Positions 38,896-53,408 of a DNA stretch of 64,000 nt are shown in pieces. This DNA comes from Pedomonas mirosovicensis. GTDB lineage: Bacteria > Pseudomonadota > Alphaproteobacteria > Sphingomonadales > Sphingomonadaceae. Below the pieces are notes generated by a model. The model ran no database searches, was not told the DNA's origin, and saw only the letters and a program-made list of their open reading frames with translations. The DNA is taken from NCBI RefSeq assembly GCF_022569295.1, contig NZ_JAKFIA010000001.1, positions 1,379,001 to 1,443,000 of the forward strand, read 5' to 3'. The stretch's first letter is position 1; the number at the start of each line of letters is the position of its first letter. Made by a program: the position numbers and the translations under genes.

Positions 38896-38915
38896 GGCCC
38901 CAGGAAAACAGCCTG

Positions 38916-38955: not shown

Positions 38956-38970
38956 TAGCGGTTTCTTTTT

Positions 38971-38998
38971 ATTGCAGAGGGCCTTGGACCCCCTTGCG
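38971..38998. repeat. Palindromic intergenic repeat, copy 7 (imperfect)
   Basis: TTGCAGAGGGCC ... GGACCCCCTTGCG is preceded by a TTTCTTTTTA stretch. It is a degenerate relative of the GGGGTC/GACCCC family, lying between znuD and the convergent glycosyltransferase gene. Confidence 0.6.
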
Positions 38999-39117
38999 CT
39001 CCCTTTCCTTACAGGGCCGGGCTCGTCATGAGGAACGAGGCTTTGTTTAAGTTTTCAGGTCAGGGCACGAACGCATCCGTAAAGGCGGGCGAGCCTAAAA
39101 ATGAATGGGAGCGCCGC

Positions 39118-40173
39118 TCAGGCCGCCAGCGCGGTCGGCTCAATCGGCGTCAGGGCCGAGAGGAACTGGGCGGTGCTGTTCTCCCACGAGAAGTTCCGGG
39201 CATAGTCGGCGCAGGCCGCGCGCTCGCAGCGCAGGGCGGCGGCGATGGCGGCTTCCAGAGTTTCGTCCACCGCGCCGACGGGCGTGTTCCAGCCGGCGAT
39301 GACGCCGCGGCCATCTTCCCCCAGCACGTCGAGGGGGCCGGGCACCGGATAGGCGGCGACCGGGACACCGCTGGCAAGCGCCTCGATCATGACGAGGCCG
39401 AAGGTGTCGGTCTTGCTGGGGAAGACGAAGACATCGGCGCTGGCATAGGCGCTGGCCAGCTGCTCGCCGTGCAGCGCGCCGAGAAAGGCGGCATTGGGAT
39501 ATTTAAGGATCAGCGAGGACAGGGCCGGGCCGTCGCCCACCACCACCTTGGTGCCCGGATGGGTGTTGCTGAGGAACGCTTCCAGGTTCTTCTCAACGGC
39601 CACCCGGCCGACGCACAGCTGGATGGGGCGGGGCAGGGTGGCGAGGGCCGGGTGCGGTTTCGCGCCGGAATGAAAGAGGGTGAGGTCAACGCCCCGCGTC
39701 CAGTGGGCGGTTGATGCGATGCCGTGTTCGTGCAGTTCGTGGGCAAGGCGCGGCGTTGCCGTAAGCACGTGGCGGGCTGGCGCATGGAACCAGCGAATGT
39801 ACCGCCAGAGCAGCCTTGGCGGCAGCTTGGTGCGGGCCGCCACATAATCGGGAAAGCGGGTGTGAAAGGCGGTGGTGAAGGGCACGCTCCGGCGCACGCA
39901 GGCGCGCCGCGCCGCCAGCCCCAGCGGGCCTTCGGTGGCGATGTGCAGCGCATCCGGCGCGAAGGCTTCGATCAGCCGCTCCACCCGCCGCCGCGTTGCG
40001 AACGCCAGCCGGATTTCCGGATAGGTGGGGCAGGGAAGGGAGCGGAACAGGCTTGGCGTGATGAGTTGAACCTGATGGCCCATGGCTTCCAGCCGGGCAA
40101 CCACCGTTTGGAGCGTCCGCACGACGCCGTTGACTTGCGGGGCCCAGGCGTCGGTGACGATGCTGAGTCTCAT
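39118..40173 (-). CDS. Glycosyltransferase family 4 (mannosyltransferase-like)
   Basis: The protein has 351 residues with a GT-B fold. The opening MRLSIVTDAWAPQVNGVVRTLQTVV and TEGPLGLAARRACVRRSVPFTTAFHTRFPDYV match GT4 enzymes that mannosylate diacylglycerol or lipid carriers. The C-terminal domain has VGRVAVEKNLEAFL, FPSKTDTFGLVMIEALASGVPVAAYPVPGP. It shares a four-base overlap with the LpxH-like gene upstream, so the two probably act in one lipid-modifying step. The acceptor is unknown. Confidence 0.9.
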   Translation of the reverse strand: MRLSIVTDAWAPQVNGVVRTLQTVVARLEAMGHQVQLITPSLFRSLPCPTYPEIRLAFATRRRVERLIEAFAPDALHIATEGPLGLAARRACVRRSVPFTTAFHTRFPDYVAARTKLPPRLLWRYIRWFHAPARHVLTATPRLAHELHEHGIASTAHWTRGVDLTLFHSGAKPHPALATLPRPIQLCVGRVAVEKNLEAFLSNTHPGTKVVVGDGPALSSLILKYPNAAFLGALHGEQLASAYASADVFVFPSKTDTFGLVMIEALASGVPVAAYPVPGPLDVLGEDGRGVIAGWNTPVGAVDETLEAAIAAALRCERAACADYARNFSWENSTAQFLSALTPIEPTALAA

Positions 40174-41135
40174 GCGATCGCCGCCTCTTTTTCAGGAGCT
40201 TTTTCAGGAGCGCGCGCCGTGTCCTCGGCCGGGCGCGCTTCCTGTTTCGGGGAACGCGGGCGGCGCTGGCGCTCGGCCCAGTCGATAATCTCCATCCGTC
40301 CGTCCGGGTGCTCGACCAGCGCCGTGCAGCTCTCCACCCAGTCGCCATCGTTGTAATAGGTGACAGGGCCGAACTGGCGGATCTCGGCTGAGTGGATATG
40401 ACCGCAAACGATGCCGTCCGCGCCCCGGTCCTGCGCGGCGTGAGCCACCGCCTCCTCGAAGCGGCAGACATATTCCACCGCGTTCTTCACCTTGCGCTTC
40501 AGGTAGGCCGACAGCGACCAGTAGGGCAGGCCGAACCGGCGGCGCACCGCATTGACCGCTATGTTGAGGCGCAGCAGGAGGTTGTAGGCGCTGTCCCCCA
40601 GAAAGGCGAGCCAGCGGGCGTAGAGCACCACGCCGTCGAACTCGTCGCCGTGGAGAACGAGCAGGCGGCGGCCATCGGCGGTTTCGTGGACCGCCTGCGC
40701 CACGATCTCCACCCCGCCGAAGTTGAGGCCCGTATAGTCCCGCAGCATTTCATCATGATTGCCGGGGATGTAGATGACCCGCGTGCCCTTCTTCGCCATC
40801 TTCAGGATGCGTCGCACCACGTCGTTGTGCTGGGGCGGCCAGTACCAGCCGCGCCGCAGCCGCCAGCCATCGATGATGTCGCCCACCAGATAGAGGGTGT
40901 CGCACTCGATGACCTTGAGGAAGTCCAGCAGCAGGGCGGCGTTGCACCCCGGCGTGCCCAGGTGGATGTCCGAGATCCAGACCGTGCGGACGCGAAGCCG
41001 TTTCAAATGGCCCTCTCCATCTTCCTCCTGCGCCCAGGCGGGCATGAAGACGCGGGCCGGAAGCTTGGGCGCGCGGGCTGGACGAGAGGGGCGGGGGCTT
41101 TGTTCGGCCAGGCGGCCATGGGCGACAGCGGTCAT
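40170..41135 (-). CDS. UDP-2,3-diacylglucosamine diphosphatase-like metallophosphoesterase
   Basis: The protein has 321 residues. The calcineurin-like motifs are complete: WISDIHLGTPGC, LVGDIIDGW, IPGNHDE, VLHGDEFDG and CGHIHSAEIR. This is the LpxH-like family that in alphaproteobacteria often accompanies a GT4 glycosyltransferase. The N-terminal 50 and C-terminal 40 residues are low-complexity extensions. Whether it acts on UDP-diacylglucosamine or on another pyrophosphate is not known. It overlaps the GT4 gene by four bases. Confidence 0.88.
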   Translation of the reverse strand: MTAVAHGRLAEQSPRPSRPARAPKLPARVFMPAWAQEEDGEGHLKRLRVRTVWISDIHLGTPGCNAALLLDFLKVIECDTLYLVGDIIDGWRLRRGWYWPPQHNDVVRRILKMAKKGTRVIYIPGNHDEMLRDYTGLNFGGVEIVAQAVHETADGRRLLVLHGDEFDGVVLYARWLAFLGDSAYNLLLRLNIAVNAVRRRFGLPYWSLSAYLKRKVKNAVEYVCRFEEAVAHAAQDRGADGIVCGHIHSAEIRQFGPVTYYNDGDWVESCTALVEHPDGRMEIIDWAERQRRPRSPKQEARPAEDTARAPEKAPEKEAAIA

Positions 41136-41450
41136 GGTCCCTCTTTCGCGGATTGAGGCCGCTGCGAGGGTCTGGCCTTCGCAGCACCCTTAATACGAAA
41201 GGGTTATACGTCGCTTGTGTGTCGCTTTCTTTACGGCGCGCGCCTGCGCTCCCTCGTCTTCAGGGGACCGGCAGATTTTTCCGGAATGGTTACCTTGCGG
41301 ACCCAAAGGCCGCCGCCTATCTTTGAGGTACGGAAACGCGGAGGATCTCCGGCGTTTCCTGCGTACTCTAATGGGTACCCCCAGCGGGTACGCGATTTCC
41401 TCCCTGAACCCTGGCCACTCCACCCACTGGTAGAGTGGCCTTTTTTCGTG
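41136..41450 (+). ncRNA. Candidate structured non-coding RNA with intrinsic terminator
   Basis: This gap between two minus-strand genes has no convincing ORF but strong plus-strand structure. A long hairpin spans 41325-41368: arms GAGGTACGGAAACGC and GCGTTTCCTGCGTACTC, with a GGAG/CTCC tip. A second follows near 41373-41391 (GTACCC/GGGTAC). A terminator with a perfect 8-bp stem GGCCACTC/GAGTGGCC and six T ends at 41446. Only the plus strand has the T-run, and no plus-strand CDS precedes it, so an independent transcript is implied. The 5' end is not defined. I could not match it to 6S, SRP, tmRNA or RNase P RNA. Confidence 0.5.
41413..41446 (+). terminator. Intrinsic terminator
   Basis: The stem GGCCACTC (41413-41420) / GAGTGGCC (41433-41440) has a 12-nt loop and is followed by TTTTTT. 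It ends the candidate RNA transcript. Confidence 0.88.
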
Positions 41451-41472
41451 TCCGGGTGTTTGTCGGGCGAGG

Positions 41473-42381
41473 CTATTCCGCCGCCGGGCGGAGCGTCTGC
41501 CCCAGGTTGAGCGCCGGCAGGCCGTCGCGGATCGTCCTGAAAATACGGGCGATATTCTGGCGCAAGGCGGCCAGGCCGGTGCTGCGGGTCAGGTGCAGCT
41601 CGGACATGTAAAGGCTGCGGTCGATCTCGATTTGCACCACATGCACGTTGCGCTCAGGCTGGCCATAGACCTCGGTGGTGTAGCCGCCCGAGTAGGGCGT
41701 GTTCAGCGCGATATGATAGCCTTCGGCCTCTAGCGCGCCGCGTACAAGGCCCAGCACCGCGGGCGAGCAGCTCTCACCCCAGCGGTTGCCGAGCACGATA
41801 TCGGGCCGACGCGCGCCGGTCTTGGAGGTTTGCGGCAAGGCCGCCGAGGGCATGGAATGGCAGTCCAGCAGCAGGGCATAGCCATGGGCGCGCTGGGCCT
41901 CCTCGATCAGGTCCTTCAGCGCCGCATGATAGGGCACATGCACCGTCTCGATGCGCGCCAGCGCCTCCGAGAGCGGCAGCTTGGTGTTGTAGATGTCCAG
42001 CCCGATGCCGGCGACGCGGGGCACGACGCCAAGGCCTGCCGCCACCCGCTCCGAGAGGCAACGGGCATAGGAGGGCAGCGGATCGAAGAACATGGCCGGG
42101 TCCAGCTCATCGGGCGCGCGGTTGAGGTCCACGTAGGCGCGGGCGTAGCGGGCGCAGATGAGCGACAGGCCAAGGGACGGGGCATCGGCCACCAGCTCGT
42201 CCACGAAGGCGTCTTCCGACCGGCGCAGCAGGCGCAGATCAAGCCGGGACCGGCGCAGGAAATCGGGCGGATACAGGGTGCCGCTGTGCGGCGATGCGAT
42301 GATCAGCGGAGCGCAGACGCCCGCTGGTCGTTGAATTTGATACGGCCGGTTTAGCGTCTCGGCAGATGTATCCGTAACCAT
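41473..42381 (-). CDS. N-formylglutamate amidohydrolase
   Basis: The protein has 302 residues of the N-formylglutamate amidohydrolase family (HutG-like): LIIASPHSGTLYPPDFL at the start, then ARYARAYVDLNRAPDELDPAMF, LLLDCHSMPSA, RRPDIVLGNRWGESC and TPYSGGYTTEVYG. It hydrolyses N-formylglutamate, an intermediate of histidine degradation, although no other hut gene is nearby. It is divergent from cpdR, a pairing often seen in alphaproteobacteria. Its true substrate could differ. Confidence 0.9.
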   Translation of the reverse strand: MVTDTSAETLNRPYQIQRPAGVCAPLIIASPHSGTLYPPDFLRRSRLDLRLLRRSEDAFVDELVADAPSLGLSLICARYARAYVDLNRAPDELDPAMFFDPLPSYARCLSERVAAGLGVVPRVAGIGLDIYNTKLPLSEALARIETVHVPYHAALKDLIEEAQRAHGYALLLDCHSMPSAALPQTSKTGARRPDIVLGNRWGESCSPAVLGLVRGALEAEGYHIALNTPYSGGYTTEVYGQPERNVHVVQIEIDRSLYMSELHLTRSTGLAALRQNIARIFRTIRDGLPALNLGQTLRPAAE

Positions 42382-42515
42382 GACGACAGGATGAGGGTCA
42401 ACGGCTGCTCACGCAATCTTAAACTTCTCAGGTGAGGATAAACTTCTCAAGTTGAGATTTCGGGCGGCCCGGTGCGGTTTCAGGAGTGGCGATGACGGGA
42501 GAGAGGCGTCCGGTG

Positions 42516-42872
42516 GTGAAGATCCTCTTGGCCGAAGACGATGATTCGATGCGGGCGTTCCTGGCCAAGGCCATCCAGCGCGCGGGCTATGAGGTGGAAG
42601 CCGTGGATCGGGGCACGGCCGCGTTGCCGCTGATTGCCACCGGCACGTTCGACCTGCTGCTCACCGACATCGTGATGCCGGAGATGGACGGCATCGAACT
42701 GGCCCAGCGGGCGGCGGCGCTGGCCCCGAACATGCAGGTGGTGTTCATCACCGGCTTTGCCGCCGTGGCGCTCAACCGGCCCGAAGGCGCGCCGCAGAAC
42801 GCCAAGGTGCTGTCAAAACCCTTTCATCTGCGTGAGCTAATCAGCGAAATCGAACGGATGCTCGCCGCCTGA
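42516..42872 (+). CDS. cpdR: Cell-cycle response regulator CpdR
   Basis: The protein is a single receiver domain of 118 residues from the GTG at 42516 (GAGAGG nine bases upstream). Starts at 42486 or 42492 are also possible. ILLAEDDDSMRAFLAKAIQRAGYEV, phosphoacceptor Asp in LLLTDIVMPEMDGIELAQRA and KVLSKPFHLRELISEIERML are nearly diagnostic for CpdR. In Caulobacter the unphosphorylated form localises ClpXP and triggers degradation of PdeA and other substrates. Divergent from the amidohydrolase. Confidence 0.9.
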   Translation: MKILLAEDDDSMRAFLAKAIQRAGYEVEAVDRGTAALPLIATGTFDLLLTDIVMPEMDGIELAQRAAALAPNMQVVFITGFAAVALNRPEGAPQNAKVLSKPFHLRELISEIERMLAA

Positions 42873-42939
42873 GGCGCCCGGCCGGGGCAGAGCCCTCGGG
42901 CTTTCCCTCGGGCGCGGCCTGGGGCGAGGGGGGCGGATC

Positions 42940-44082
42940 ATGGCGGGACTATTCCGCGCAGGGGTTTGGGCGGCTATAGCCTGCGCTCTGGGCGCGGCCG
43001 GAGGGGCTGCCATCATGGCAAGGCAGGGGAATTTCGTGGAACAGCCGATCGTTATTGCCCACCGGGGCGCGAGCGCCGAACGCCCGGAGCACACGCTGGC
43101 AGCCTATGAGCGGGCCATCGACCTGGGGGCGGACTATATCGAGCCGGATCTGGTCTCGACAAAGGACGGCGTGCTGGTCGCCCGCCACGAGAACGAGATC
43201 AGCAGCACCACGGATGTGGCGCGCCGCCCCGAATTCGCCGGGCGCAGGACGACGAAGAGGATCGACGGCCGCGATGTGACCGGCTGGTTCACCGAGGACT
43301 TCACGCTGGCCGAGCTGAAAACCTTGCGGGCGCGCGAGCGGCTGCCGGAGGTGCGGCCCGCCAACACCGCCTATGACGGGCAGGAGGCCATCCCGACGCT
43401 GGAGGAGATCATCGCGCTCGCCCGCCGCAAGGAGCGGGAGACGGGGCGCGCCATCGGCCTCTACATCGAGACCAAGCACCCCAGCTATTTCGCCTCCATC
43501 GGCCTGCCGCTGGAGCCGGGCCTCGTGCGCCTGCTCTCGGCGCACGGCTACGAGGGGCGGCAAGCGCCGGTGTTCCTCCAGTCCTTCGAGGTGGGGAACC
43601 TTAGGGTGCTGAGGGCGGAGACCCGGCTGCCGCTGGTGCAGCTGATGGAGGCGGACGGCGCGCCCTATGATCGGGTGCTGGCGGGCGACGTTCGCACCTA
43701 TGCCGACATGGCGACACGGCAAGGGCTGGCGGAGATATCCGCCTATGCGGACGCCATCGGCATCCAGAAGGAGATGCTGGTGCCGAGGGGGGCGGACAAC
43801 GACATTCTCGCGCCGACGACGCTGGTGCGGGACGCCCACGCGGCGGGGCTCAAGGTCCATGTGTGGACCTTCCGCAGCGAGAACGCCTTCCTGCCGCGCC
43901 GCTGGCAGGCGGGCCCGGAGGCCGGGGCCGGAGCGGGGGCTGGGGCGGACGCTGCCCCAGCCGTGCGCGGCGACGCGGAGGCGGAGCTGGAGCTGTTCCT
44001 GGGGCTGGGCGTTGACGGCGTCTTCGCCGATGATCCGGCCGTTGCGGTGCCGGTGCGGAACCGCCTGCGGGCGGCGCATTGA
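42940..44082 (+). CDS. Glycerophosphodiester phosphodiesterase
   Basis: The protein has 380 residues. An N-terminal hydrophobic segment (AAIACALGAAGGAAIMA) suggests export or anchoring. The GDPD catalytic motifs are IVIAHRGASAERPEHTLAAYERAIDLGADYIEPDLVSTKDGVLVARHE, with both His and the metal-binding Glu/Asp, then IETKHPS and VHVWTFRSEN. It releases glycerol 3-phosphate from deacylated phospholipids. A glycine/alanine-rich insert (GPEAGAGAGAGADAAPA) lies near residue 325-345 and is unusual. Confidence 0.92.
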   Translation: MAGLFRAGVWAAIACALGAAGGAAIMARQGNFVEQPIVIAHRGASAERPEHTLAAYERAIDLGADYIEPDLVSTKDGVLVARHENEISSTTDVARRPEFAGRRTTKRIDGRDVTGWFTEDFTLAELKTLRARERLPEVRPANTAYDGQEAIPTLEEIIALARRKERETGRAIGLYIETKHPSYFASIGLPLEPGLVRLLSAHGYEGRQAPVFLQSFEVGNLRVLRAETRLPLVQLMEADGAPYDRVLAGDVRTYADMATRQGLAEISAYADAIGIQKEMLVPRGADNDILAPTTLVRDAHAAGLKVHVWTFRSENAFLPRRWQAGPEAGAGAGAGADAAPAVRGDAEAELELFLGLGVDGVFADDPAVAVPVRNRLRAAH

Positions 44083-44177
44083 GCCTCTCAAAAATTTGGA
44101 ATTCGGGTCTTGCGTTTGAAAAGAACTGGGGTATAAGGCCGCTCTCCGGACGGCACTGCCGCCGGATTGACCCGGGT

Positions 44178-44252
44178 GGGCGTGTAGCTCAGTGGTAGAG
44201 CACTGTGTTGACATCGCAGGGGTCGCAAGTTCAATCCTTGCCACGCCCACCA
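44178..44252 (+). tRNA. tRNA-Val (GAC), island integration site
   Basis: The acceptor arms GGGCGTG and CACGCCC pair fully, then discriminator A and encoded CCA (44250-44252). The anticodon loop TTGACAT gives anticodon GAC (valine). The T-arm reads AAGTTCAATCCTT. The 3' half plus 18 bases downstream is repeated at 48102-48165, marking this gene as the attachment site. Confidence 0.95.
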
Positions 44253-44270
44253 TTCTTCCCCTTGAAATTG
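44207..44270 (+). repeat. Left attachment-site repeat (attL)
   Basis: 64 bases from the anticodon loop of tRNA-Val to 18 bases past its CCA. 58 of 64 positions match 48102-48165. The differences are one in the T-arm side (G/A), three around the tRNA 3' end and two further downstream. Confidence 0.85.
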
Positions 44271-44900
44271 CTATGATTATTGTCGTTGCAAGCGCAGCGA
44301 TGATTTGGCCTTTCCCCTCAAGGCTCCCTAAACGGGGCGTGGAGCGAGGCGGGTGCTCCTTGAGTGCAGCTGTGCAAGAGCTTGGTGCGTCATGCCTGCC
44401 GACAGGTAAATGCGGCCAACTTAAGAAGGCCGCTCAGCGCCATAGTAGGCCTCAGTCCGGACCAGCATGGCGTTCTCCGCCTTTTAGGGATCTTCCTTCG
44501 GACCCAAAACTGGGCTGCTTCCCGCTGGTCTGTTGTCCCCAGCAAGCAACCACTACCCGAAAGAGTGGTCAAGCCAACCGAGTAGAATATTCGGAATATA
44601 TGCAGCGGCCATGCGCCCCGGCCTGGCCGTGGCTGCAACCATGCCGCCACCGAGGGCAGGGGTGTCCGCAGCCCCAAGGCGCGCGCTTAATCCCCCGCCT
44701 CGCCTGCGGGCTTTATGTGTCGGTTTTGATGCACCGGGGGCACCGGCCCGGCATAAGGCAGGCCGCGGGCCGGTAGGGGGGAGGCAAGGGGAGGCTCAGA
44801 TCGATGCGAATTGATGCAGGCTAAGGCTCTCCCAGCGGGCAGGTACGGGGTTGACCGCTGAAGCTAATTCGATCGGTTCGATAGCCAGAATTTCGGAGGG
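44271..44900. other. Island left end, no gene recognised
   Basis: There are several short open frames in this stretch but none resembles a known family or has a good ribosome-binding site. Composition is intermediate, with a GC-rich block at 44590-44780. A decayed integrase could lie here but I see no recombinase motif. Confidence 0.45.
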
Positions 44901-44912
44901 TTGTCTGGAAAA

Positions 44913-45102
44913 CCATAACTTCCATAACCATCCCTGGCGAGAGCCGTTTAAGTGACTGAAATTTAACAATAACTCAAGTTATGGTCTGGCCATAATCTTT
45001 TATACCTTTATAACCCGAAAAGTGTAATCTGGTTATGGTGACGTTATGGTAGATGTTATGGCGTAAGTGTTTGAATTTTCAGGCATGTTATAGATGTTAT
45101 GG
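44913..45102. repeat. GTTATGG iteron-like repeat cluster
   Basis: Five exact GTTATGG copies start at 44978, 45032, 45043, 45055 and 45096, with one variant GTTATAG at 45087. Two exact reverse copies (CCATAAC) lie at 44913 and 44922, with a variant CCATAAT at 44990. The 45032/45043/45055 trio is spaced 11 and 12 bases, one helical turn. The intervening DNA is AT-rich. It lies upstream of the HipA-like gene. Confidence 0.85.
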
Positions 45103-45273
45103 TTTTCCCGCCCTCTCCCGAACTTTCTAACGATTGGCAGAGATTTTGAGGCTAACACTTCGCATAATTGGAGTATAAGGAGCTTCCGGCGGTTTCCGAT
45201 CGTCAAGTTGTGGGCGAACAGGAGGGCTAAGGGCGGCCAGCAACGCGTGGCCCGCTTTAAGGGGGTGAGTTTA

Positions 45274-45998
45274 GTGGTAGATCGACTGATAGTCGATGAG
45301 ATTCTGCGAGCAACAATTAGCGGGGCCACGAAGCCTTTTGTGTGCCGCCTCAACGATGACCAGCTATATGTGCTCAAGGGAAGAAGCGCTCAGGCACGAG
45401 GTTGCATAGCCGAGGTTGTTGCCGCTGCATTGGGCAGAGCGTTCTCTTTGCCTATCCCGTCCTTTGCGCTAGCAGATGTACCGCTACCTTTAGTTGAGGC
45501 AATGCCGGAAGCGCGGTCGTCCCTCGGTCATGGCGTAGCGTTCGCATCTCAATATGTGGACGGCCTGCAGCCCCTTTCTATATCAGCTATGGGTCCAAGC
45601 TGGGAACATACGCTAGCGCGCGTGTTTTTATTTGATCATTGGATAATGAACGAAGATCGGACTGGGACCGAGCATGGGGGCAACCCTAATCTTTTTTCAG
45701 ATCGGAGAGACAGGACGTAGTTGTTATCGACCATAATCTTGCCTTTGATCCGACTTATAACCCTGAAAACAATGTCAAACTCCATATATGTAGGGAATTT
45801 TGGCACCAAACATCTCAAGATATGTTACAATTAACCATTCTTAAATCAGAGATGTTGGAGGTACTGGGCTCCTTGGAAAGCGTATTTGAGTGCTTGCCTG
45901 CGGAATGGATCGACATGGAGCCGGCATTCATTCCAAAAATCGAAGAAACTCTGCATAGGTGTGAGCGGGACCAGTTTTGGAGCGAGATAAAATGGTGA
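45274..45998 (+). CDS. HipA-like kinase (HipA_2 type), frameshifted
   Basis: The protein has about 242 residues if one base is added to the six-T run at 45692-45697. The GTG at 45274 is preferred because AAGGGGG precedes it; the frame is open further upstream. N-terminal lobe: KPFVCRLNDDQLYVLKGR, with the ATP-binding Lys, and IAEVVAAALGRAFSLPIPSFAL. Catalytic region: FDHWIMNEDRTGTEHGGNPNL, and after correction VVVIDHNLAFDPTYN with the metal-binding Asp. This matches the short HipA-like family rather than full HipA, and no hipB is adjacent. As written the frame stops at 45720. The last seven bases overlap the DUF3037 start, so the downstream part is evidently still organised as coding sequence. 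Confidence 0.8.
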
Positions 45999-46843
45999 AT
46001 GTGTTCAAATACTGCATCATCAGGTTTCGCCCGTTTGTGGAAACTGAAGAGTTCGCCAATATTGGAATCATAGTACTTAATTTCGAGACTGGTGAACTAG
46101 GTCATCATTTGGCTCCGACTCGATTCGGACGAGTGATGCAGTTTTTTGAGGAAATGGAGGCAGGGTTATATTCCAGCGTTGTTCGGGGACTGGATGACAT
46201 TCTTTGCACCGTCGAGGATTTAGCTAAGGAAAGCCCCTCGAACGGCAAGGATATTTTTGAGCACTTGACGACACGTCAAGAGGCTGCGGTCATTTATAGC
46301 CAGCCTCGGGCTATCCGCGCTGAAGGGAATGTTCAGGACGTCGCAAAAAGGCTTTTCTATCGATACGTCAAGCGTCAGTTTGATGATGCTGCAAATCGTG
46401 AAGATGTCCTTACTAAAAGAATTCGAAAATGGCTTAATGATGCCAATATTAAAGGGTTCAAGTCAGGTAGAATTGAGGACGAACTCCTACCGGTTAACTT
46501 TTCTCTTATTAGCAAAGAGAGGGGTGTGCATGTGATCCAGCCCCTTTCTTTTGCTGATAAACCGAGTGTTCGAATCATTGATCATGCTGCGAAATGGCAT
46601 GATCGGATCCAACTTTTACTTGATCGCCGGAAGCTGGAAGAAGGACGTGTGTTGCTCACTTTGGAGCCGCCTTCAGATAAAGCGGAGGAAAGCAATAGAC
46701 ACGCCTATCGAATCGCGACGAAGGGCTTGAGAGGGCTGCCGGTTCGTATCCTTGAAAAGGGATGCGACCCTGAGATTGAGCAGCAGATTGTTGAATTTGC
46801 GAGACGAGGGGCTAAGGCCCAGTCCAATTGGCTACTCCACTAA
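45992..46843 (+). CDS. DUF3037 family protein
   Basis: The protein has 283 residues from the ATG at 45992, which overlaps the HipA-like gene's stop region; a start at 45977 is also in frame. The DUF3037 hallmark is at the N-terminus: FKYCIIRFRPFVETEEFANIGIIVLNFETGELGHHLAP. The C-terminal half is helical and charged. No enzyme motif or membrane segment is visible. DUF3037 genes are, from general knowledge, often found beside HipA-like kinase genes, which suggests one two-component unit of unknown function. A terminator follows 26 bases after the stop. Confidence 0.88.
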   Translation: MVNVFKYCIIRFRPFVETEEFANIGIIVLNFETGELGHHLAPTRFGRVMQFFEEMEAGLYSSVVRGLDDILCTVEDLAKESPSNGKDIFEHLTTRQEAAVIYSQPRAIRAEGNVQDVAKRLFYRYVKRQFDDAANREDVLTKRIRKWLNDANIKGFKSGRIEDELLPVNFSLISKERGVHVIQPLSFADKPSVRIIDHAAKWHDRIQLLLDRRKLEEGRVLLTLEPPSDKAEESNRHAYRIATKGLRGLPVRILEKGCDPEIEQQIVEFARRGAKAQSNWLLH

Positions 46844-46868
46844 TTGACCAATTATCAAATGTATTTGG

Positions 46869-46897
46869 AAAGGGCGGCTTCGGGCCGCTCTTTTTAT
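46869..46897 (+). terminator. Intrinsic terminator of the HipA-like/DUF3037 operon
   Basis: The stem AAAGGGCGGC/GCCGCTCTTT has ten pairs with one G-U and loop TTCGG, followed by TT and A/T-rich sequence. Confidence 0.85.
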
Positions 46898-47156
46898 CGG
46901 ATACGTCTGCGAGGATATTGAAACATCAGGAGAAAGCTGTTTGGGGCTGTTTCGGGACTCTCCCGCCAAATGGTGGCTTTTCGTGCCGTTTTGTCCTGCT
47001 TTCATGAAATACCGCTTGACCGCAAACCCGTGCGGAAACTAGGGAACTGCACACGGCGGTCGGTCGGCTCAGTTGAGCATCTCGTTTACACCGAGGGAAC
47101 CGGCCCTTTGGTCGAAGTAGGCAGGTGCCGGCCGCCTCAGACGGCCGGCATTAGGT
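46898..47156. other. Island spacer; hairpin after the small ORF
   Basis: No gene recognised. A GCCGGCCG/CGGCCGGC hairpin at about 47129-47151 lies directly after the stop of the minus-strand small ORF and may end its transcript, although there is no T-run. Confidence 0.5.
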
Positions 47157-47321
47157 TTATTTGAATATTCCGCCGACTGTGAGTAGGCCGCCAAGCGCTG
47201 CAATGCGGGCCAGTAGCCGCCTTATGCTTGCTAGGCTGCCCTTATATTTCAACTCCAGGCTGTGATATCGGGCGTATAGCTCGACTGGGTGTTGATCGTT
47301 GCTGCTATCTGGCTGGTTCAT
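47157..47321 (-). CDS. Small ORF, 54 residues, possible membrane peptide
   Basis: The ATG at 47321 is preceded by GAACGAGGCAATTAG, a plausible ribosome-binding site. The product begins MNQPDSSNDQHPVELYARYH and ends with a basic then hydrophobic stretch, SIRRLLARIAALGGLLTVGG, which could be a short membrane-inserting helix. No homology recognised. It lies in the island on the strand opposite to the kinase operon. Coding status is inferred only from length, start signal and amino-acid make-up. Confidence 0.5.
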   Translation of the reverse strand: MNQPDSSNDQHPVELYARYHSLELKYKGSLASIRRLLARIAALGGLLTVGGIFK

Positions 47322-47613
47322 CTAATTGCCTCGTTCAGGTTGCCGACTTGACCCAGCCAATCAAAGTGGCATTCTCTTCATCGGAGATTGTGTGAAGAGA
47401 CCCATCTCTAACGGCTAGACCGTTCACACACCCAGGCTTCGGTTTGGGCCGTCTAAGGGGATCTTGTTCCAGCAGGATCCCCTTAGCTCGTTGTGGCCTG
47501 CGCCAAGGTGCGTTCCCCCAATGAACCCCAAGATATGGGGCGAGGCAAGAGGCCAGTTTGGATCCGAAACAACGGTCGGACAGTGGGCTAGACCAGTGAT
47601 CCTAAGTTATTCT

Positions 47614-47652
47614 GGATCACTATGGACCACTATGGATCACTATGGATCACCA
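47614..47652. repeat. 10-bp tandem repeats GGATCACTAT
   Basis: Units start at 47614, 47624 (one change, GGACCACTAT), 47634 and 47644 (last unit incomplete). A reverse copy AGTGATCC lies 11 bases upstream at 47596-47603. Confidence 0.85.
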
Positions 47653-47998
47653 GAGATCTGGCAAAAATTCGAGTTCTGGATCATTGGCCATTATCCGTGC
47701 GTCAATTTGCCGCATGTGTTCTCAACTGCGTATTGCGGGCACGCTGGTGCAGCAACGCCGAGTTGATAGGAGATCTGTGATCAGTTGTGAGAGCGAATCG
47801 ATCGAATAGGCTGTTCAGATGTCACTTCTAGGCTGAAGGAACTGAGGACGCTTAAATCGAGCTGTGTCGGAAAGCTGATTGCAACCGCAGCGTTTCCTTC
47901 TGCCCCTTGATCAGCTGCTGATTGGTTAGGGTGCAAAGTGGTCGGGATATTTTCCGGTTTTCATAGGTTCGAACCGGTGCAAAATCTATCGGGTGAGG

Positions 47999-48019
47999 TT
48001 CGGGTGAAATTCACCCGAA
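47999..48019. promoter_or_regulatory. Perfect 21-bp palindrome near attR
   Basis: The 10-bp arms TTCGGGTGAA and TTCACCCGAA are separated by a single A. This is typical of a dimeric repressor or recombination-protein site. It ends 83 bases before attR. Confidence 0.7.
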
Positions 48020-48101
48020 AAGCCCGTTTGTTCGCAGTTTGTTCCAGTAAATCGACGGTATTAAACCCAATGAAATCAATGGGTTAATCCTATCTCGATA
48101 C

Positions 48102-48165
48102 GTTGACATCGCAAGGGTCGCAAGTTCAATCCTTGCCACGCCACCTATTCTTCCCCTCGAAATCG
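48102..48165 (+). repeat. Right attachment-site repeat (attR), displaced tRNA-Val 3' end
   Basis: 58 of 64 bases match 44207-44270. It contains the tRNA from the anticodon loop to the acceptor stem but no 5' half, and its 3' end is degenerate (GCCACCTA in place of GCCCACCA), so it is not a functional tRNA. Confidence 0.85.
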
Positions 48166-48250
48166 TCAGGCCTTCCAGAGCGTGCTGCTGCGCGCCTTTT
48201 GCTGTTCCGGCGATAGGCTATAAGGGGCCATTGCTGCGGAAGGGGCTGGG

Positions 48251-48745
48251 ATGAAGTGGCGGCGGGCGAGGGCGGAAGATGCGGAGGCGATCGGCCGCCT
48301 TTCCGTTGATATTCTGGGCGAGCTGGGCGAGCCGCCCGCCATCTTTGCGGAGCGCATCGCCCTGTGCCCGGAGGGCTGCCACGTGCTGGCCAGCGGGGCG
48401 GACATTCTCGGCCACATGATCAGCCACCCGTGGGTGCGGGGAAGGCCGCCTGCTCTCAACCAGATGCTCCGGCACATCCCGGCCGGGGCGGACTGCTGGT
48501 ATATCCATGAAGTCGCCTTGCGGGAGGCGGCGCGGGGGCGGGGCTGCATCCGCGCTATCCTGCGCCAGTTGGCGGACACGGCAGTGGCTGCGGGCCTTCC
48601 CGTCATGGCGCTGGTGGCGGTGGCAAATGCTGTGGCCTACTGGCAGCGGCTGGGGTTCAGGCCGGCGCCGCTCGCCGCGGACGGGATCGACAGCCATATC
48701 GGCAGCTACGGCGGGGCGGCGGCCTATCTGGAAATGGAACTCTGA
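48251..48745 (+). CDS. GNAT family N-acetyltransferase
   Basis: The protein has 164 residues of the GNAT fold: MKWRRARAEDAEAIGRLSVDI at the start, CWYIHEVALREAARGRGCIRAILRQL, which holds the acetyl-CoA loop in the form RGRG, and VANAVAYWQRLGFRPAP near the end. The substrate is unknown. It lies directly outside the right attachment site and has chromosomal GC content. Confidence 0.88.
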   Translation: MKWRRARAEDAEAIGRLSVDILGELGEPPAIFAERIALCPEGCHVLASGADILGHMISHPWVRGRPPALNQMLRHIPAGADCWYIHEVALREAARGRGCIRAILRQLADTAVAAGLPVMALVAVANAVAYWQRLGFRPAPLAADGIDSHIGSYGGAAAYLEMEL

Positions 48746-48796
48746 GCCGTCTCCGGCGGCGCTGCCTCGGGCTTCGCGGATGGCGTTGCCGCAGCC

Positions 48797-49681
48797 TTAC
48801 GTTGCGCTGATAGGCGCGGGGCGCGCGGCCTGGCCCCGTTCCGTTTCCGCGCGCAGCGGGCAGGCGCGCCAGCCTTCGTCGGCGTAGGTATAGTGGACGC
48901 GGCTGCCGGGCTGGAAGCCGGTGCCGTCCCAGCTGATGACCTGAAGCTCCAGATCGTTGTGACGGCGCACATCCAGCCAGTTGAAGCTCTGCCGTTCGCC
49001 CGCGCGCAGGCGCACGGAGGTGGCCGTGCCCGCCTGCACCACCAGGGCGTGGCCCGCCGTCTCCACCATGCGGCTGGCAGCCTCGGCGAAGGTGCGGTGA
49101 AAGTGCCCGGCCAGCGCCAGGTGAACCCCAGCGCGGGCGAGGGCGGCAACGGCGCTTTCGTGCCGCCCCACCGCCTCGCTCAACCGTTCGCCCTTGCCGA
49201 TGGGCATGGCAAAGAGCGGATGATGGGTGACGAGAATGCGCGTCTTCTGCGGGGCGACATCGCGGAAGCGATCCTCGATAATCCGCATCTGCGTGCGGTT
49301 GATACGGCCGCCGGTCAGCGCGATGGAGCGGGCAGTGTTGATGCCGAGGACGGCCACCTCGTCGTTCTCGAACCAGGGGTTCAGGTTAGTGTCGATATAG
49401 CGCCGGTAGCGCCGCAGCGGCGAGAACAGGCGGCGCGCCACGTCGTAGAGCGGCACGTCGTGGTTGCCGGGCACGGTCAGCACCTTGAGGCCCGCCGCCC
49501 GCAGGCGATCGAGGTAGGCCGATGCGTCCTTGAACTGGCGGATGCGCGCCCGTTGGGTGAGGTCGCCGCTGATGATGACGAGGTCCGGGGCGTTCTCGCG
49601 CAGCCATGCCTCACTGGCGGCAACCACGCGCTTATCATGGGCGCCGAAGTGAACATCAGAGAGATGCGCGATCAGGGCCAT
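48797..49681 (-). CDS. Calcineurin-like metallophosphoesterase
   Basis: The protein has 294 residues. The metal-binding motifs are HLSDVHFG, IISGDLTQRAR, VPGNHDVP, VTHHPLF and AGHFHRTF, complete for the family. No membrane segment. The best-known relatives are cyclic nucleotide or other phosphodiesterases (CpdA-like), but the substrate cannot be read from the sequence. The divergent neighbour is a diacylglycerol-kinase-like gene. Confidence 0.9.
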   Translation of the reverse strand: MALIAHLSDVHFGAHDKRVVAASEAWLRENAPDLVIISGDLTQRARIRQFKDASAYLDRLRAAGLKVLTVPGNHDVPLYDVARRLFSPLRRYRRYIDTNLNPWFENDEVAVLGINTARSIALTGGRINRTQMRIIEDRFRDVAPQKTRILVTHHPLFAMPIGKGERLSEAVGRHESAVAALARAGVHLALAGHFHRTFAEAASRMVETAGHALVVQAGTATSVRLRAGERQSFNWLDVRRHNDLELQVISWDGTGFQPGSRVHYTYADEGWRACPLRAETERGQAARPAPISAT

Positions 49682-49758
49682 CGTAACACAACGAGCGTTT
49701 GCCGTTCCGGGTTCCTCGGGAAGGCGGAGCGAAACCGTACTTCAAGCGTTTTAGGCCT

Positions 49759-50721
49759 ATGGTGCTCCAGCCAGTTCCGCGTGAGGCTGCCCTCATTGTA
49801 AACGCACAGTCCCGGCGTGGGGACGACCTGTTTCAGCAGGCAAGGGAAAAGCTCCAGGCGGCCGGCTTCAAGTTGATCGCGGCCCACGCGGTTCATGACC
49901 CGACAGAACTTGCCCTCACCGTGCGCCAGGCGGTGCGGAACGGCGCGCCCATGGTGATCGTGGGCGGGGGCGACGGCTCGCTCTCCGGCACGGTGGACGA
50001 GGTGGTCGATACCGGCTGCGTGTTCGCGGTGCTGCCGCTCGGCACCGCGAACAGCTTCGCGCGCACGCTGGGCATCCCGCTCGACCTGGATGCGGCGGTT
50101 GCATGCCTTGCCAACGGCCGCCGTCGCCGGATCGACCTTGGCATGATCGATGACGACTATTTCCTGAACGCAGCCTCCATCGGCCTGTCGCCCACCATCG
50201 GGGCCACCATTCCGCATAAGCTGAAGAAATACCTGGGGCGCGCCGGCTATCTGGCGTGGGCGGCGCGATGCTTTCTCAAGCTGAAGCCCTTTCGCCTCAT
50301 CCTCAATGACGGCGCGCGCGAGAGGCGCATGTGGTCGACGGAGGTGCGCGTGCTCAACGGCCGGTTTCATGGCGGCGTCGAGCTGACGGAGGAGGCCGAT
50401 GTGGACAGCGGCGATATCATCATCCAGGCCGTCACGGGCCGGAACCGCCTTTCGCTGATCCTCGATTGGTATGCCAAGGTCTTCAAGCTGAGGGACCGCA
50501 ACGCCCACACCGAGGATTTCCGGGGGCGGGAATTCCGCCTCGACACCCGGCCCTCCCTGCGGATTTCCATTGACGGCGAGGTGCTGGCGAGAACCCCGGT
50601 GACGGTGAAGGTTGCCTCCCGCGCCATTGAGGTGGTGGCCCCTTGCGACTATGAAACGGCAAGGGCCGGGGCCGGGGCAGGGGATGGCGATGCGGGACGA
50701 AGATCGGCGGATTGGGGCTGA
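49759..50721 (+). CDS. Diacylglycerol/lipid kinase family protein
   Basis: The protein has 320 residues from the ATG at 49759. The DAGK catalytic domain shows IVNAQSRRGDDLFQQAREKL, the nucleotide loop VIVGGGDGSLSGTVDEV and LPLGTANSFARTLGIP; the C-terminal domain contains DGEVLARTPVTVKV. It probably phosphorylates diacylglycerol or another lipid alcohol. It slightly overlaps a PAP2 phosphatase gene, giving a kinase/phosphatase pair on lipid substrates. Confidence 0.9.
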   Translation: MVLQPVPREAALIVNAQSRRGDDLFQQAREKLQAAGFKLIAAHAVHDPTELALTVRQAVRNGAPMVIVGGGDGSLSGTVDEVVDTGCVFAVLPLGTANSFARTLGIPLDLDAAVACLANGRRRRIDLGMIDDDYFLNAASIGLSPTIGATIPHKLKKYLGRAGYLAWAARCFLKLKPFRLILNDGARERRMWSTEVRVLNGRFHGGVELTEEADVDSGDIIIQAVTGRNRLSLILDWYAKVFKLRDRNAHTEDFRGREFRLDTRPSLRISIDGEVLARTPVTVKVASRAIEVVAPCDYETARAGAGAGDGDAGRRSADWG

Positions 50722-51301
50722 GGGCATCTGGCTGTTCCCGGCGCTGGCGCTGGTCTGGCTGGCCGCCCTGCTGGAAGGCGGGGCTGCCTCGGCGTTCGAC
50801 CGGGGCCTCCTGTCCGCTTTTTATCTGGGCGGGGAGGCGCGCCTTGTCGGCTTCTGGGTCTTCGTGACCGAACTCGGCGGCTGGCGGGCGTTGATTCCCC
50901 TGGCGGTCGCCGCTGGCGCATTCCTGCTCGCCAAACGCCGCACGCGCGACGCGCTGTTTCTGCTCTCCGTTGTTATCGGCGCGCGCGTGCTGGTGGAGGC
51001 GCAGAAGCTTCTGGTGGACCGGGCGCGACCCGGCGAGGCGCACCTCGTTGATGTCTACTCCCAGAGTTTTCCCAGCGGCCATGCGGCCAATTCCCTTGCC
51101 ACCTACCTGGCCCTGGCCATGCTGTTCTTCGGTAGCCGGCGCGCGGTTGTCGCCGCCCTGCTGCTCGCCGGGCTCATCGGCCTCAGCCGGGTGCGGCTCG
51201 GGGTGCACTGGCCGAGCGACGTGATCGGCGGCTGGGCCTTTGCCTTGCTTTGGGCGCTGGCTCTGGCGCGCCTGTTCCGCGTGGCGCCTGTCAGACGTTG
51301 A
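50690..51301 (+). CDS. PAP2 superfamily membrane phosphatase
   Basis: The protein has 203 residues from the ATG at 50690. There are several membrane segments. The three PAP2 motifs are KLLVDRARP, PSGHAANSLATYL (catalytic-site His) and SRVRLGVHWPSDVIGG (second His). It removes phosphate from lipid phosphates or undecaprenyl pyrophosphate. It follows the lipid kinase gene with a 32-base overlap and its last bases overlap the convergent response-regulator gene. Confidence 0.9.
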   Translation: MRDEDRRIGAEGIWLFPALALVWLAALLEGGAASAFDRGLLSAFYLGGEARLVGFWVFVTELGGWRALIPLAVAAGAFLLAKRRTRDALFLLSVVIGARVLVEAQKLLVDRARPGEAHLVDVYSQSFPSGHAANSLATYLALAMLFFGSRRAVVAALLLAGLIGLSRVRLGVHWPSDVIGGWAFALLWALALARLFRVAPVRR

Positions 51302-51686
51302 CGCGCCGGGCGAGCGCCTTCACCAGCGCCTGTTCCAGATCCGATTGCTGGTAGGGCTTGTGCAGAACCGGCCAATCCTGCCATTCCGGGCTCACCGCGC
51401 CGTCGCCATAGCCGGTGGCGAAGATGAACGGTGCGCCGCGCTGCTTCATGGCCTCGGCGATGGGATAGGCGGGTTCGCCGGCCAGGTTGATGTCGATGAT
51501 GGCGATGTCCGGCTGCAGCGCCTCGATGAGGGCAAGGGCGCGCGCCACCTGCCCGGCGCAACCGACCACGACGCAGCCCAGCTCTTCCAGCAGATCCTCC
51601 AGAAAGATGGCCACGAGCGTCTCGTCTTCAACAACGAGCGCGCGCAGGCCTTCCAACGTGGGAAGCGGCGCGGCGGCATTGGCCAT
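51291..51686 (-). CDS. Response regulator (single receiver domain)
   Basis: The protein has 131 residues from the ATG at 51686, whose A overlaps the upstream kinase stop. It is a receiver domain only: LRALVVEDETLVAIFLEDLLEELG, phosphoacceptor Asp in IAIIDINLAGEPAYP, Thr in FATGYGDG and Lys in VLHKPYQQSDLEQAL. The FATGYG form is the one usual for partners of HWE/HisKA_2 kinases. It should be phosphorylated by the kinase encoded immediately upstream. Confidence 0.9.
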   Translation of the reverse strand: MANAAAPLPTLEGLRALVVEDETLVAIFLEDLLEELGCVVVGCAGQVARALALIEALQPDIAIIDINLAGEPAYPIAEAMKQRGAPFIFATGYGDGAVSPEWQDWPVLHKPYQQSDLEQALVKALARRVNV

Positions 51687-53143
51687 CAGGCGTGTTTCTC
51701 CATGTTCGGTCTCAGGGGTATTTCCAGGCGGCAGCTGAGGCCAGTGGGGAGGAACTCCATGTGGGCGCTGCCGTGCAGCTGGTCGCGGGTGCTGCGCTCG
51801 ATGAACAGCGAGCCGAAGCCGTGCGTCCGGGGCAGATGGGCGGGCGGGCCGCCACTTTCCCGCCATAGCAGGTGCAACAGGGGCTGGCCGTCAGCCGGGT
51901 TGGCGATCACGTGCCACTCGATCCGCACGCCGCCCGTCGGCTGGGACAGGCTGCCGTGCTTGATGGCGTTGGTCACCAGCTCATGGAACACCATGCCCAG
52001 CACTACGGCCTGATCGGCGGTCAGCTCCACCGCGTCGCCGGTCAGGATGATGCGCCGCCCTTCGCCCTCGCGGTAGGGCAATACCTGGTCCTCGATGATG
52101 TCGCGCAGCGCCGCCCCCGACCACTGGCTGCGGGTGAGCAGGCTGTGCGCCTTGCTGAGCGCCATGAGGCGGCCCTGAAACTTCTCGTAGAAGGTGTGGG
52201 CATCCGGTGTTTTCCGCACGGTCTGGTAGGCGAGGGACTGAACCGTCGCCAACGTATTCTTGATGCGATGGTTAAGCTCGCCCATCAGCATCTGCTGGCG
52301 TTCCTGCACCTGCTTGAATTGGGTGATATCCTGCGCGACGCGCACACTGTAGAGGTAGCCGTCCTCCACGCTCCGCACGGCGGAAGAGGTGACGGATACC
52401 CAGAGCTGGGTGCCATCCTTCCGGATGTGGCGCTGTTCAAGCGTATAGCGATCCAGTTGCCCCGCAACCTGCCGCACGTAGAACTCATGCTCGCGCGCGC
52501 GGTCCTCCTCGGTCACGAGAGCGGAGATGTTGAGGGACAGAAGCTCTTGCCGGCTGTAGCCGGTGAGGGCGCAGAAAGCCTCGTTGACCCGCAGCAGGCG
52601 ACCGCTTGCGTCCGTCTCGCCAATGCCAACGCCTGCGTGCTCGTAAATGGCCGCCAGTTCCGCCGTGTCGGCGGGCGGAATATCCCGGCGCGGCTGCTGC
52701 GGCGTATCCTGAACGCAGGAGACGGCCCCGATGACGCGCGCGTCCGCATCCAGCACCGGCGCGGCGCTGATCGTTGCAAAGGTGCGCGAGCGATCTGGTC
52801 GTTCGATGAGGATGGGCTGGCCGGAGGTGGCGGTGCCCTGCCTCAGGGCCAGGTGCACGGGCGTGGCCTCGGGCGCGAGCGGGGTGCCATCAGGCAGGAA
52901 GAGCGTGAGCGACCCGCAACAGCAGGGCCCGGCCTCGCCCGCAGGCGCGGGCGCGCAACGCCACAATTCCAGCGCGCGCCGGTTATGCCGCGCCGGCGTG
53001 CCATTGGCCCGGTAGATGGTCACCGCCATGGGCAGCAGGTCGAGCAATCCCTGCGGCGTGCTGAACAAGGCTTCGAGTGCGGCCTCGGCAGGGTGGGGAG
53101 TGCAGTCAAGCGTGGCGCCTGAATCGTACATGCCGATTGCCAT
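51686..53143 (-). CDS. PAS-containing sensor histidine kinase (HWE/HisKA_2 type)
   Basis: The protein has 485 residues. Two to three PAS-like regions (about 25-135 and 155-285, the second with DASGRLLRVNEAFCALTGYSRQELL and VAQDITQFKQVQER) precede a phosphoacceptor helix GELNHRIKNTLATVQSLAYQ. The ATPase part shows FHELVTNAIKHGSLS (N-box) and GFGSLFIERSTRDQL. The NHRIKN form is that of HisKA_2/HWE kinases. A CCC/CC cysteine cluster (AGPCCCGSL) near residue 72 is unusual. No membrane segments, so it senses a cytosolic signal. It is translationally coupled to the response regulator. Confidence 0.9.
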   Translation of the reverse strand: MAIGMYDSGATLDCTPHPAEAALEALFSTPQGLLDLLPMAVTIYRANGTPARHNRRALELWRCAPAPAGEAGPCCCGSLTLFLPDGTPLAPEATPVHLALRQGTATSGQPILIERPDRSRTFATISAAPVLDADARVIGAVSCVQDTPQQPRRDIPPADTAELAAIYEHAGVGIGETDASGRLLRVNEAFCALTGYSRQELLSLNISALVTEEDRAREHEFYVRQVAGQLDRYTLEQRHIRKDGTQLWVSVTSSAVRSVEDGYLYSVRVAQDITQFKQVQERQQMLMGELNHRIKNTLATVQSLAYQTVRKTPDAHTFYEKFQGRLMALSKAHSLLTRSQWSGAALRDIIEDQVLPYREGEGRRIILTGDAVELTADQAVVLGMVFHELVTNAIKHGSLSQPTGGVRIEWHVIANPADGQPLLHLLWRESGGPPAHLPRTHGFGSLFIERSTRDQLHGSAHMEFLPTGLSCRLEIPLRPNMEKHA

Positions 53144-53408
53144 ATCTCATTTCGTCAGGGAAGGTCCCGCCGGAGGCGCGGTGTACGAAGAATATGGTAA
53201 CTTACCGGAAGTTGATCGCGCAATGGCGTAGACGTCTAAAAAATCGATAAAACCGGCGGCATTTGCTACAATTGGATGAGCTAAAGGATTGTTTGCTAGT
53301 GCATTTGTGTCCTTCTGTTAACAGCGCGAAACGTCTATTGCCGGCATGCTGACTTCTCGCTGAACCAAGCATCAATTTGTAATTTGGTTTACTTTTATTG
53401 GAGGCGTT

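Follow-up and report, generated by a model that had tools for sequence, protein, structure and literature searches.

A HipA-like kinase and DUF3037 locus beside a P2-type cos word, between tRNA-Val(gac) repeats of Pedomonas mirosovicensis: a probable composite relic

Described systems and the anatomy of the island

Pairs of a HipA-like kinase and a DUF3037 protein are recognised as toxin-antitoxin systems that defend against phage and go by the names HipAD, DS-6 and PDC-M66. HipAD is reportedly described, judging by a paper's title, from E. coli prophages. It is also described from a retron locus, where, in the excerpted text of PMC12548924, a pair beside Retron-Sda1 protects against Bas51 without the retron, deletion of the kinase removes defence and deletion of DUF3037 is toxic; in the excerpted text of PMC13092281, DS-6/HipAD defence is lost on mutating a predicted catalytic residue. 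Defence, toxicity without DUF3037 and the requirement for a catalytic residue were thus demonstrated by others, in homologues of the pair reported here. HipAB resembles HipAD in the fold of its toxin kinase and differs in the partner, which is HipB there and DUF3037 for the kinase of this island. Two further kinds of locus are relevant to the surroundings of the pair, namely the cos-adjacent hotspot for defence genes (old/tin locus) in P2-like phages and P4-like satellites (PMC9122126, as excerpted), and islands integrated at tRNA genes by a tyrosine integrase.

The locus lies within a stretch of 64,000 nucleotides (the window), and its features, with positions counted from the first letter of the window, are as follows.

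44178..44252, + strand: intact tRNA-Val(gac), left att side (ARAGORN; Rfam tRNA, 68.6 bits)
44207..44268, + strand: left att-type direct repeat copy, from the tRNA anticodon loop to the 3' end plus flank
44253..44665, no strand: left non-coding part, without any arm-repeat word searched
44693..44733, + strand: P2-type cos word, candidate as to cutting, within a conserved block at 44666-44734
44913..45102, no strand: iteron-like array with seven exact GTTATGG/CCATAAC
45274..45720, + strand: HipA-like kinase part 1, HipA_2 (PF20613) positions 1-139, stop at its end (ORF list, Pfam)
45723..45998, + strand: HipA-like kinase part 2 in another frame, HipA_2 positions 145-240, bearing the IDH motif (ORF list, Pfam)
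45992..46843, + strand: DUF3037 gene (PF11236; HipD / DS-6B / PDC-M66B), intact (ATG 45992; upstream TTG 45977 also open)
about 46868..46896, + strand: intrinsic-terminator-like hairpin and T run, read from the sequence
46940..47095, + strand: 5' half of tRNA-Val(tac) with the host-type DNA upstream of it, 84% to the genome's own C1:2124733-2124892
47613..47652, + strand: four 10-bp tandem units of TGGATCACTA type, of which the preferred explanation gives no account
47991..48045, + strand: arm-type repeats GGGTGA.. and TGTTC.. at the right att end, matching DNA beside displaced tRNA-Val copies of two relatives (G008, G080)
48102..48163, + strand: right, displaced tRNA-Val 3'-half copy

The initial annotation had described an AT-rich segment flanked by the tRNA-Val 3' half and a displaced copy of it, and this anatomy is borne out. 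The direct repeats at 44207-44268 and 48102-48163 are 92% identical over 62 nt without gaps and stand 3.9 kb apart, and the tRNA's final 40 nt have a sole other copy, at 48108 with 4 mismatches, when both strands of 38001-54000 are searched at up to 8 mismatches. GC content ranges from 0.475 to 0.53 over 45001-48000 (three 1-kb bins) and is 0.589 in the mixed bin 44001-45000, as against 0.656-0.702 in the adjoining bins (42001-44000 and 48001-50000). Foreign DNA is thereby enclosed by a duplicated tRNA 3' end, as in tRNA-integrated islands. The annotation had also recognised the terminator after the pair, and had found no recombinase; all six integrase-family (PF00589) matches of the genome indeed fall outside the island. 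The cos word, the GTTATGG array, the tRNA-Val(tac) fragment, the repeats at 47991-48045 and the break in the kinase frame are features beyond that annotation. Two further small ORFs in the island matched no Pfam family, and no RNA family besides tRNA reached its own gathering score there.

From this anatomy and the homologies set out below, we consider the island to be, with a probability of about 0.8, a composite relic, in which what is left of a P2-like prophage, its cos-side end with HipAD and host flank, lies inside the att repeats of another element.

The HipA-like kinase and its DUF3037 partner

The gene pair had been annotated as a HipA-like kinase gene overlapping a DUF3037 gene by seven bases. 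Both families and the overlap stand, with the kinase stop and the DUF3037 ATG sharing 45992-45998 in co-oriented genes, but the kinase is not intact. Its frame is visibly broken before the IDH motif, which we take to be metal-binding by analogy to HipA, and an intact single polypeptide is absent from the sequence as given; the conserved kinase residues are all present, yet divided between two frames. PADLOC calls the pair PDC-M66A/B and, judged by sequence, it belongs to the HipAD/DS-6/PDC-M66 toxin-antitoxin kind, whose function has been tested in homologues and is not new. The island resembles those systems in both families, gene order, overlap and mobile-DNA setting, and is unlike them in its broken kinase frame.

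Among the 80 DUF3037 loci compared, 76 have a kinase reading whose end is no more than 200 nt from DUF3037, and 65 have a single-frame kinase match covering at least 200 of 243 positions; the other 15 are without such a match, some through short pieces. The relatives' kinase is about 244 aa long, and all five aligned sphingomonad kinases (L032, L033, L066, L068, L070) read in one frame. The structural model of the intact L033 kinase (pLDDT 94.2) matches the folds of CtkA (Z 14.4), HipT (Z 12.8) and HipA (Z 12.5), while a search of PDB sequences gave the kinase no match at E <= 1, its kin being found by fold alone. DUF3037, which is 22-37% identical to six aligned relatives, had five matches to PDB sequences, the best at just E = 0.2, and none by Foldseek at E <= 0.001; VIA gave Z up to 8.3 over residues 136-282, in the range that the tool calls typical without a clear match, and several of its top rows are presumably PD-(D/E)XK-type enzymes. 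The pair occurs elsewhere on plasmids, phages and a prophage, which agrees with the earlier suggestion of a mobile cargo of toxin or defence type; the search for such pairs on other mobile elements, proposed at that time, thus found them.

In the intact pair, the HipA-like kinase would be the toxin and DUF3037 (HipD) would restrain it; infection, the trigger that we infer, would release the kinase to phosphorylate a host protein, and growth would stop. In the island, the kinase frame is interrupted ahead of the IDH motif, and therefore we predict that defence is dead and that the antitoxin alone remains. The break adjoins a short homopolymer run, however, and may stem from an error in sequencing; the pair would then possibly be live. 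A possible, though rather doubtful, alternative compatible with the composite relic is accordingly that a sequencing or assembly error conceals a working HipAD, which defends its host from within a dead island. DUF3037 is intact, and the two kinase parts cover HipA_2 positions 1-139 and 145-240 and keep the residues invariant in 20 aligned kinases, all of which would suit a live pair; the given sequence nonetheless reads as two frames, and kinase decay beside DUF3037 occurs elsewhere, among the 15 loci mentioned above.

The cos word, the GTTATGG array and the tRNA-Val(tac) fragment

By its likeness in sequence the cos word is P2-type; the P2 cohesive end is printed in PMC3931495 (as excerpted). 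The word shares 90% identity across 41 bp with phage pro483 (Peduovirus), where it lies beside the terminase and the 'capsid packaging protein'. Its exact pattern occurs in 22 viral contigs, and in 16 of them the same piece also encodes an L066-like portal or terminase; L147, one of the 16, is the L066 prophage itself. This intact prophage of Novosphingobium lindaniclasticum (L147, identical to L066) has, in this order, terminase, portal, cos, array and HipAD, and its pair extends from +549 to +2107 relative to cos, compared with +581 to +2150 in the island. The window gave no tblastn match to the L066 portal and terminase at E <= 0.01, both of which are present in relatives. The island is thus like the P2-like/P4-like hotspot in having defence genes beside a P2-type cos, and differs in that the window is without an L066-type portal or terminase and in that an iteron-like array parts cos from cargo.

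The array holds seven exact GTTATGG copies in 44880-45115, where 5000 single-base shuffles gave two at most. Similar arrays follow cos in L066/L147, L149, L153, L159, L164 and L165, and the prophage L169, borne by a Sphingomonas plasmid, has one as well. As a general operator of HipAD the array was rejected, because like arrays precede other genes in L164 and L165 and stand before tRNA-Val(tac) without the pair in L169 and L059. A simple word search found no cos word in L169, and L059 has a portal fragment alone (90 aa) and one exact GTTAYG word. The order of array and then tRNA-Val(tac) in these two loci bears on the 84% stretch at 46940-47095, whose left end we propose as the boundary between prophage and host, although the flanks of L059 and the window give a poor alignment outside the tRNA and a short common start, and the stretch could have arrived separately.

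Origin of the island and its ends

The composite relic would have arisen from a P2-like prophage beside tRNA-Val(tac) that carried HipAD in its cos-adjacent defence slot and left behind its cos-side end together with some 155 nt of flanking host DNA. This remnant block would now be enclosed by the att repeats of another integrative element, one specific to tRNA-Val(gac) and since deprived of its integrase and of the repeats at its left end, an order of events that we infer from the present arrangement. P2-like phages keep defence genes by cos, and the island therefore appears to be a decayed case of known kinds. HipAD is seen in the cos-adjacent slot of one Novosphingobium P2-like prophage (L066/L147) and, decayed, in the island, which suggests that such cargo can outlast its phage by landing between the att repeats of another element. 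A practical lesson for annotation is that a prophage end, betrayed by its cos word, may pass for an 'integrase-free HipA island'.

The ends of the island accord with the integrase loss that the initial annotation had suggested, as the right-end repeats are common to the right ends of tRNA-Val(gac) elements in relatives, 44253-44692 held none of the arm-repeat words searched, and the integrases lie elsewhere. By eye, such repeats were absent from the right end of G049, and in G020 they occur solely on the opposite side of the copy. The island shares tRNA 3'-half direct repeats and right-end repeats with tRNA-integrated islands, and differs from them in having neither integrase nor left-end repeats and in its size, about 3.9 kb versus 43-164 kb in four measured elements of relatives. 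The stretches 44253-44665 and 47096-47990 are left without explanation by the composite relic. Within the left part, 44430-44537 is 87% identical to the genome's own C2:198369-198478.

A very improbable alternative is that of a live minimal satellite of 3.9 kb, which would be packaged through cos by a P2-like helper and inserted at tRNA-Val(gac) by the integrase of others acting in trans, with the array serving copying or regulation and HipAD as sole cargo; if true, this would be an element without any mobility gene of its own. Although cos, array, cargo, att repeats and right-end repeats are all present, and other tRNA-Val(gac) elements occur in the family, the left end is without the searched repeat words, the displaced tRNA 3' half is altered, the kinase frame is broken, the genome has a single cos word (<=3 mismatches) and a tRNA-Val(tac) fragment lies inside the island. 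Moreover, in 148 other family genomes, with just two or three candidates scored per genome, the matches listed reached at most 95 nt of left flank and 55 nt of right flank. P4-like satellites carry an integrase and a large primase, and no ORF of the island list fits either at P4 size, though broken remnants could remain. A stress or defence module of undescribed type, confined to the lineage, as the initial annotation had proposed, would suit the presence of DUF3037 (E <= 0.001) in just 8 of 298 family genomes, own included, and is discarded unless the island copy acts differently, because the pair is already in PADLOC as PDC-M66 and in print as HipAD/DS-6, with toxin, antitoxin and defence roles tested in homologues (PMC12548924 and PMC13092281, as excerpted).

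Compact islands holding the pair alone between tRNA repeats were rejected as a general kind. A scan of 91 loci for tRNA and tmRNA placed 16 such genes in 15 of them. In one locus, L105, the last 28 and 40 nt of the gene proved to be duplicated, and the island there spans 10 kb and includes further genes. The displaced tRNA 3' half at 48102-48163 has diverged from the left copy. No empty tRNA-Val(gac) site was found in the relatives compared; none of the 58 is congeneric, and two genes tested from the downstream neighbourhood had no match in 11 relative tRNA-Val loci (flank up to 1.5 kb). A third downstream gene, lipid-kinase-like, is, where found, separated from the tRNA by tens of kb or more, or else is on a different contig.

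Anatomy and identity of the gene pair

The island is a segment of about 3.9 kb between a tRNA-Val(gac) gene and a displaced copy of its 3' half, and our verdict is that it represents decayed HipAD cargo from the cos-adjacent slot of a P2-like prophage, now lying between the attachment repeats of another element.

44178-44252, tRNA-Val(gac), whose 3' half is one copy of the direct repeat
44207-44268 and 48102-48163, direct repeat, 92% over 62 nt
45274-45717, kinase reading, HipA_2 positions 1-139
45723-45995, kinase reading in another frame, HipA_2 positions 145-240

The initial annotation had described direct repeats flanking an AT-rich segment beside tRNA-Val, with a terminator after the gene pair and no recombinase inside, and all of this is borne out: GC falls to 0.475-0.53 in the three 1-kb bins of 45001-48000 versus 0.656-0.702 in the two bins on each side of 44001-48000, a terminator-like hairpin lies downstream of the pair, and the six integrase matches of this genome are all located elsewhere. 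A further low-GC dip (0.525) occurs at 3001-4000, within a higher-GC surround.

Pfam matches assign the kinase reading to the HipA-like family PF20613 and the gene after it to DUF3037 (PF11236). The proposed seven-base overlap stands, the kinase stop overlapping the DUF3037 ATG by 7 nt, but the intact kinase gene does not, as the reading is divided between two frames; a search of the own genome returns the same two pieces. Alignment against six complete relatives places the break immediately before the IDHN motif, in which D, H and N are invariant among 20 aligned kinases. We predict from the sequence that this kinase copy is inactive and that the antitoxin is retained; that the apparent frame break is a sequencing error seems to us rather unlikely.

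The pair had also been put forward as an undescribed system, a proposal that has to be abandoned. NCBIfam holds no family for either protein, and PADLOC recognizes the two as PDC-M66A and PDC-M66B. A full-text search returned three papers mentioning DUF3037, one of which, going by its title, concerns the plant RNA exosome. PMC12548924 reports that such a pair, encoded next to Retron-Sda1, confers protection against phage Bas51 even when the retron is absent, that deletion of the kinase abolishes protection and that deletion of DUF3037 is toxic. The pair appears as DS-6, renamed HipAD, in PMC13092281, where a mutant in a predicted catalytic residue loses defence. In the intact pair DUF3037 would bind and silence the kinase, infection would free the kinase from DUF3037, and growth would then stop; that infection triggers the release, and that the pair defends by arresting growth, is our inference. 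The model of an intact relative kinase (locus L033; pLDDT 94.2) best matches CtkA (Z 14.4, rmsd 3.2, 200 aligned), followed by PI4KII (Z 13.7), HipT (12.8) and HipA (12.5), predicted similarities that are as expected for a HipA-type kinase. The DUF3037 model (pLDDT 91.5, pTM 0.65) yields middling matches for its C-terminal part, such as Can2 (Z 8.3), BstEII (8.1) and BsoBI (7.9), from which we draw no conclusion.

A probable P2-like prophage end

Among 148 other family genomes, nine have matches to the stretch 44666-44734. Its core, 44693-44733, is 90% identical over 41 bp to the P2-like phage pro483, directly beside genes annotated as terminase and capsid packaging protein. The reverse complement of the P2 cohesive ends, as given in PMC3931495, shares the CCCCGCCTCGCC core with 44693-44733. 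An exact scan of viral contigs for this cos word returned 22 pieces, 16 of which also encode a portal or terminase resembling those in a Novosphingobium lindaniclasticum prophage (L066), two of whose proteins PHROGs identifies as portal and terminase large subunit; one of the 16, L147, is that same prophage. At up to three mismatches the island's cos word is the only one in the own genome.

After cos comes a GTTATGG array, with seven exact words in 44880-45115 versus at most two in 5000 single-base shuffles. At least five GTTAY/RTAAC words lie within 900 nt of cos in six of the 22 viral pieces (L147, L149, L153, L159, L164 and L165), a count to be read knowing that some remaining pieces are too short to reveal an array; in the arrays compared, direct words follow inverted ones, broadly as in the window. 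In L147/L066 the order is terminase, portal, an SRAP-like gene (by inspection; unknown function in PHROGs), cos, array and an intact HipAD, the pair lying at +549 to +2107 from cos versus +581 to +2150 in the window. These sequence comparisons indicate that the island contains a P2-like prophage end. According to PMC9122126, P2-like phages have a defence hotspot next to cos, in the interval from replication gene A to portal Q, and the P4 hotspot likewise adjoins cos. Other P2-like pieces carry different genes in this slot; in viral contig piece L157 (5342-8626) two Ser/Thr protein kinases and a PP2C-like phosphatase lie beside a P2-type cos, recalling the kinase-kinase-phosphatase defence module, a name taken from an abstract. 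Pair and slot both belong to known kinds, of which we judge the island a decayed example.

Boundaries and outer repeats

At 84% identity, positions 46940-47095 correspond to the DNA preceding the genome's own tRNA-Val(tac) gene plus that gene's first half. Arrays of the same kind lie directly upstream of tRNA-Val(tac) in a Sphingomonas parapaucimobilis plasmid prophage with annotated scaffold, terminase and portal (L169:5800-6419) and in genome G098, with a portal fragment and cos block (L059:2706-3523). The four tRNA-Val(tac) sequences compared share a start like TTCGGGA..GGGACT and the tRNA, with little similarity in between except for the window versus its own genome; from these four, the common start would mark the boundary of prophage and host, and the own tRNA-Val(tac) locus would be unoccupied. 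This boundary, at L059 and L169, possibly represents an attachment site located 5' of the tRNA, an unusual arrangement if so. A simple search found no cos word in L169, which argues against a fully uniform layout.

In four relatives (G008, G011, G012 and G017) the intact tRNA-Val gene and a second 3' half are separated by 43 to 164 kb, with an integrase-family match beside the tRNA in three, that of G012 being below the curated cut-off. Judged by eye on seven right-hand copies and four left ends, GGGTGA- or CCGGT-type repeats precede the right-hand copy in these four and in G022, occur only after it in G020, are absent before it in G049, and are present at all four left ends. The window has repeats of this kind at its right end (47991-48045, by matches to G080 and G008) and none of the searched words at its left (44253-44692). 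Since the left end lacks them and the integrases lie elsewhere, the outer repeats resemble what a tRNA-Val(gac) element would keep after losing its integrase side. No empty tRNA-Val(gac) site could be demonstrated among the relatives examined.

Two smaller features lie within the island: four units of an unexplained 10-bp tandem repeat of TGGATCACTA type at 47613-47652, and a 108-nt non-coding stretch (44430-44537) with an 87% copy on the genome's second contig (C2:198369-198478), near genes that by inspection resemble a FecR/sigma-factor pair.

Distribution of the pair

Scanning bacterial genomes yielded 167 confirmed DUF3037 relatives; of the best 80, 76 have a kinase reading whose end lies no more than 200 nt from DUF3037, and in 65 a single-frame match covers at least 200 of 243 kinase positions. 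Five loci (L073, L081, L092, L127 and L131) have the kinase over two or more ORFs, like the window, possibly reflecting repeated loss of the toxin with the antitoxin kept, although these loci had been chosen via DUF3037 in the first place. Absence of the pair from other mobile elements, which the initial annotation had named as counting against it, is not what we find: DUF3037 matched 19 plasmid records, two of them chromosome-sized (2.2 and 4.9 Mb), and three phage records (tblastn, E <= 1e-5), a HipA family kinase is annotated in 13 of the 19 plasmid rows, and in phage PhiR5_1 the pair, annotated HipA toxin and HipD antitoxin, adjoins cI.

Within the family, DUF3037 occurs in 8 of 298 genomes, own included (E <= 0.001). 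Comparison of window proteins with stretches fetched from six of the other seven (G293 left out) gave a kinase match in G178, G233 and G146, and none at E <= 0.001 in G184, G161 and G109. A class-wide sample of 289 genomes, own included, has PF20613 in five and PF11236 in two (E <= 0.001); both of the latter carry an adjacent kinase, and the remaining three kinase matches are weak.

Two loci place related pairs beside tRNA-Thr(cgt). In a proteobacterial MAG, a 10-kb island (L105:324-10459) runs from this tRNA to a duplicate of its 3' end and holds HipAD between genes resembling, by inspection, type I restriction-modification subunits; G146 has a HipA-like/DUF3037 pair that is more distantly related (L034:637-3829) and lies right behind an integrase (PHROGs).
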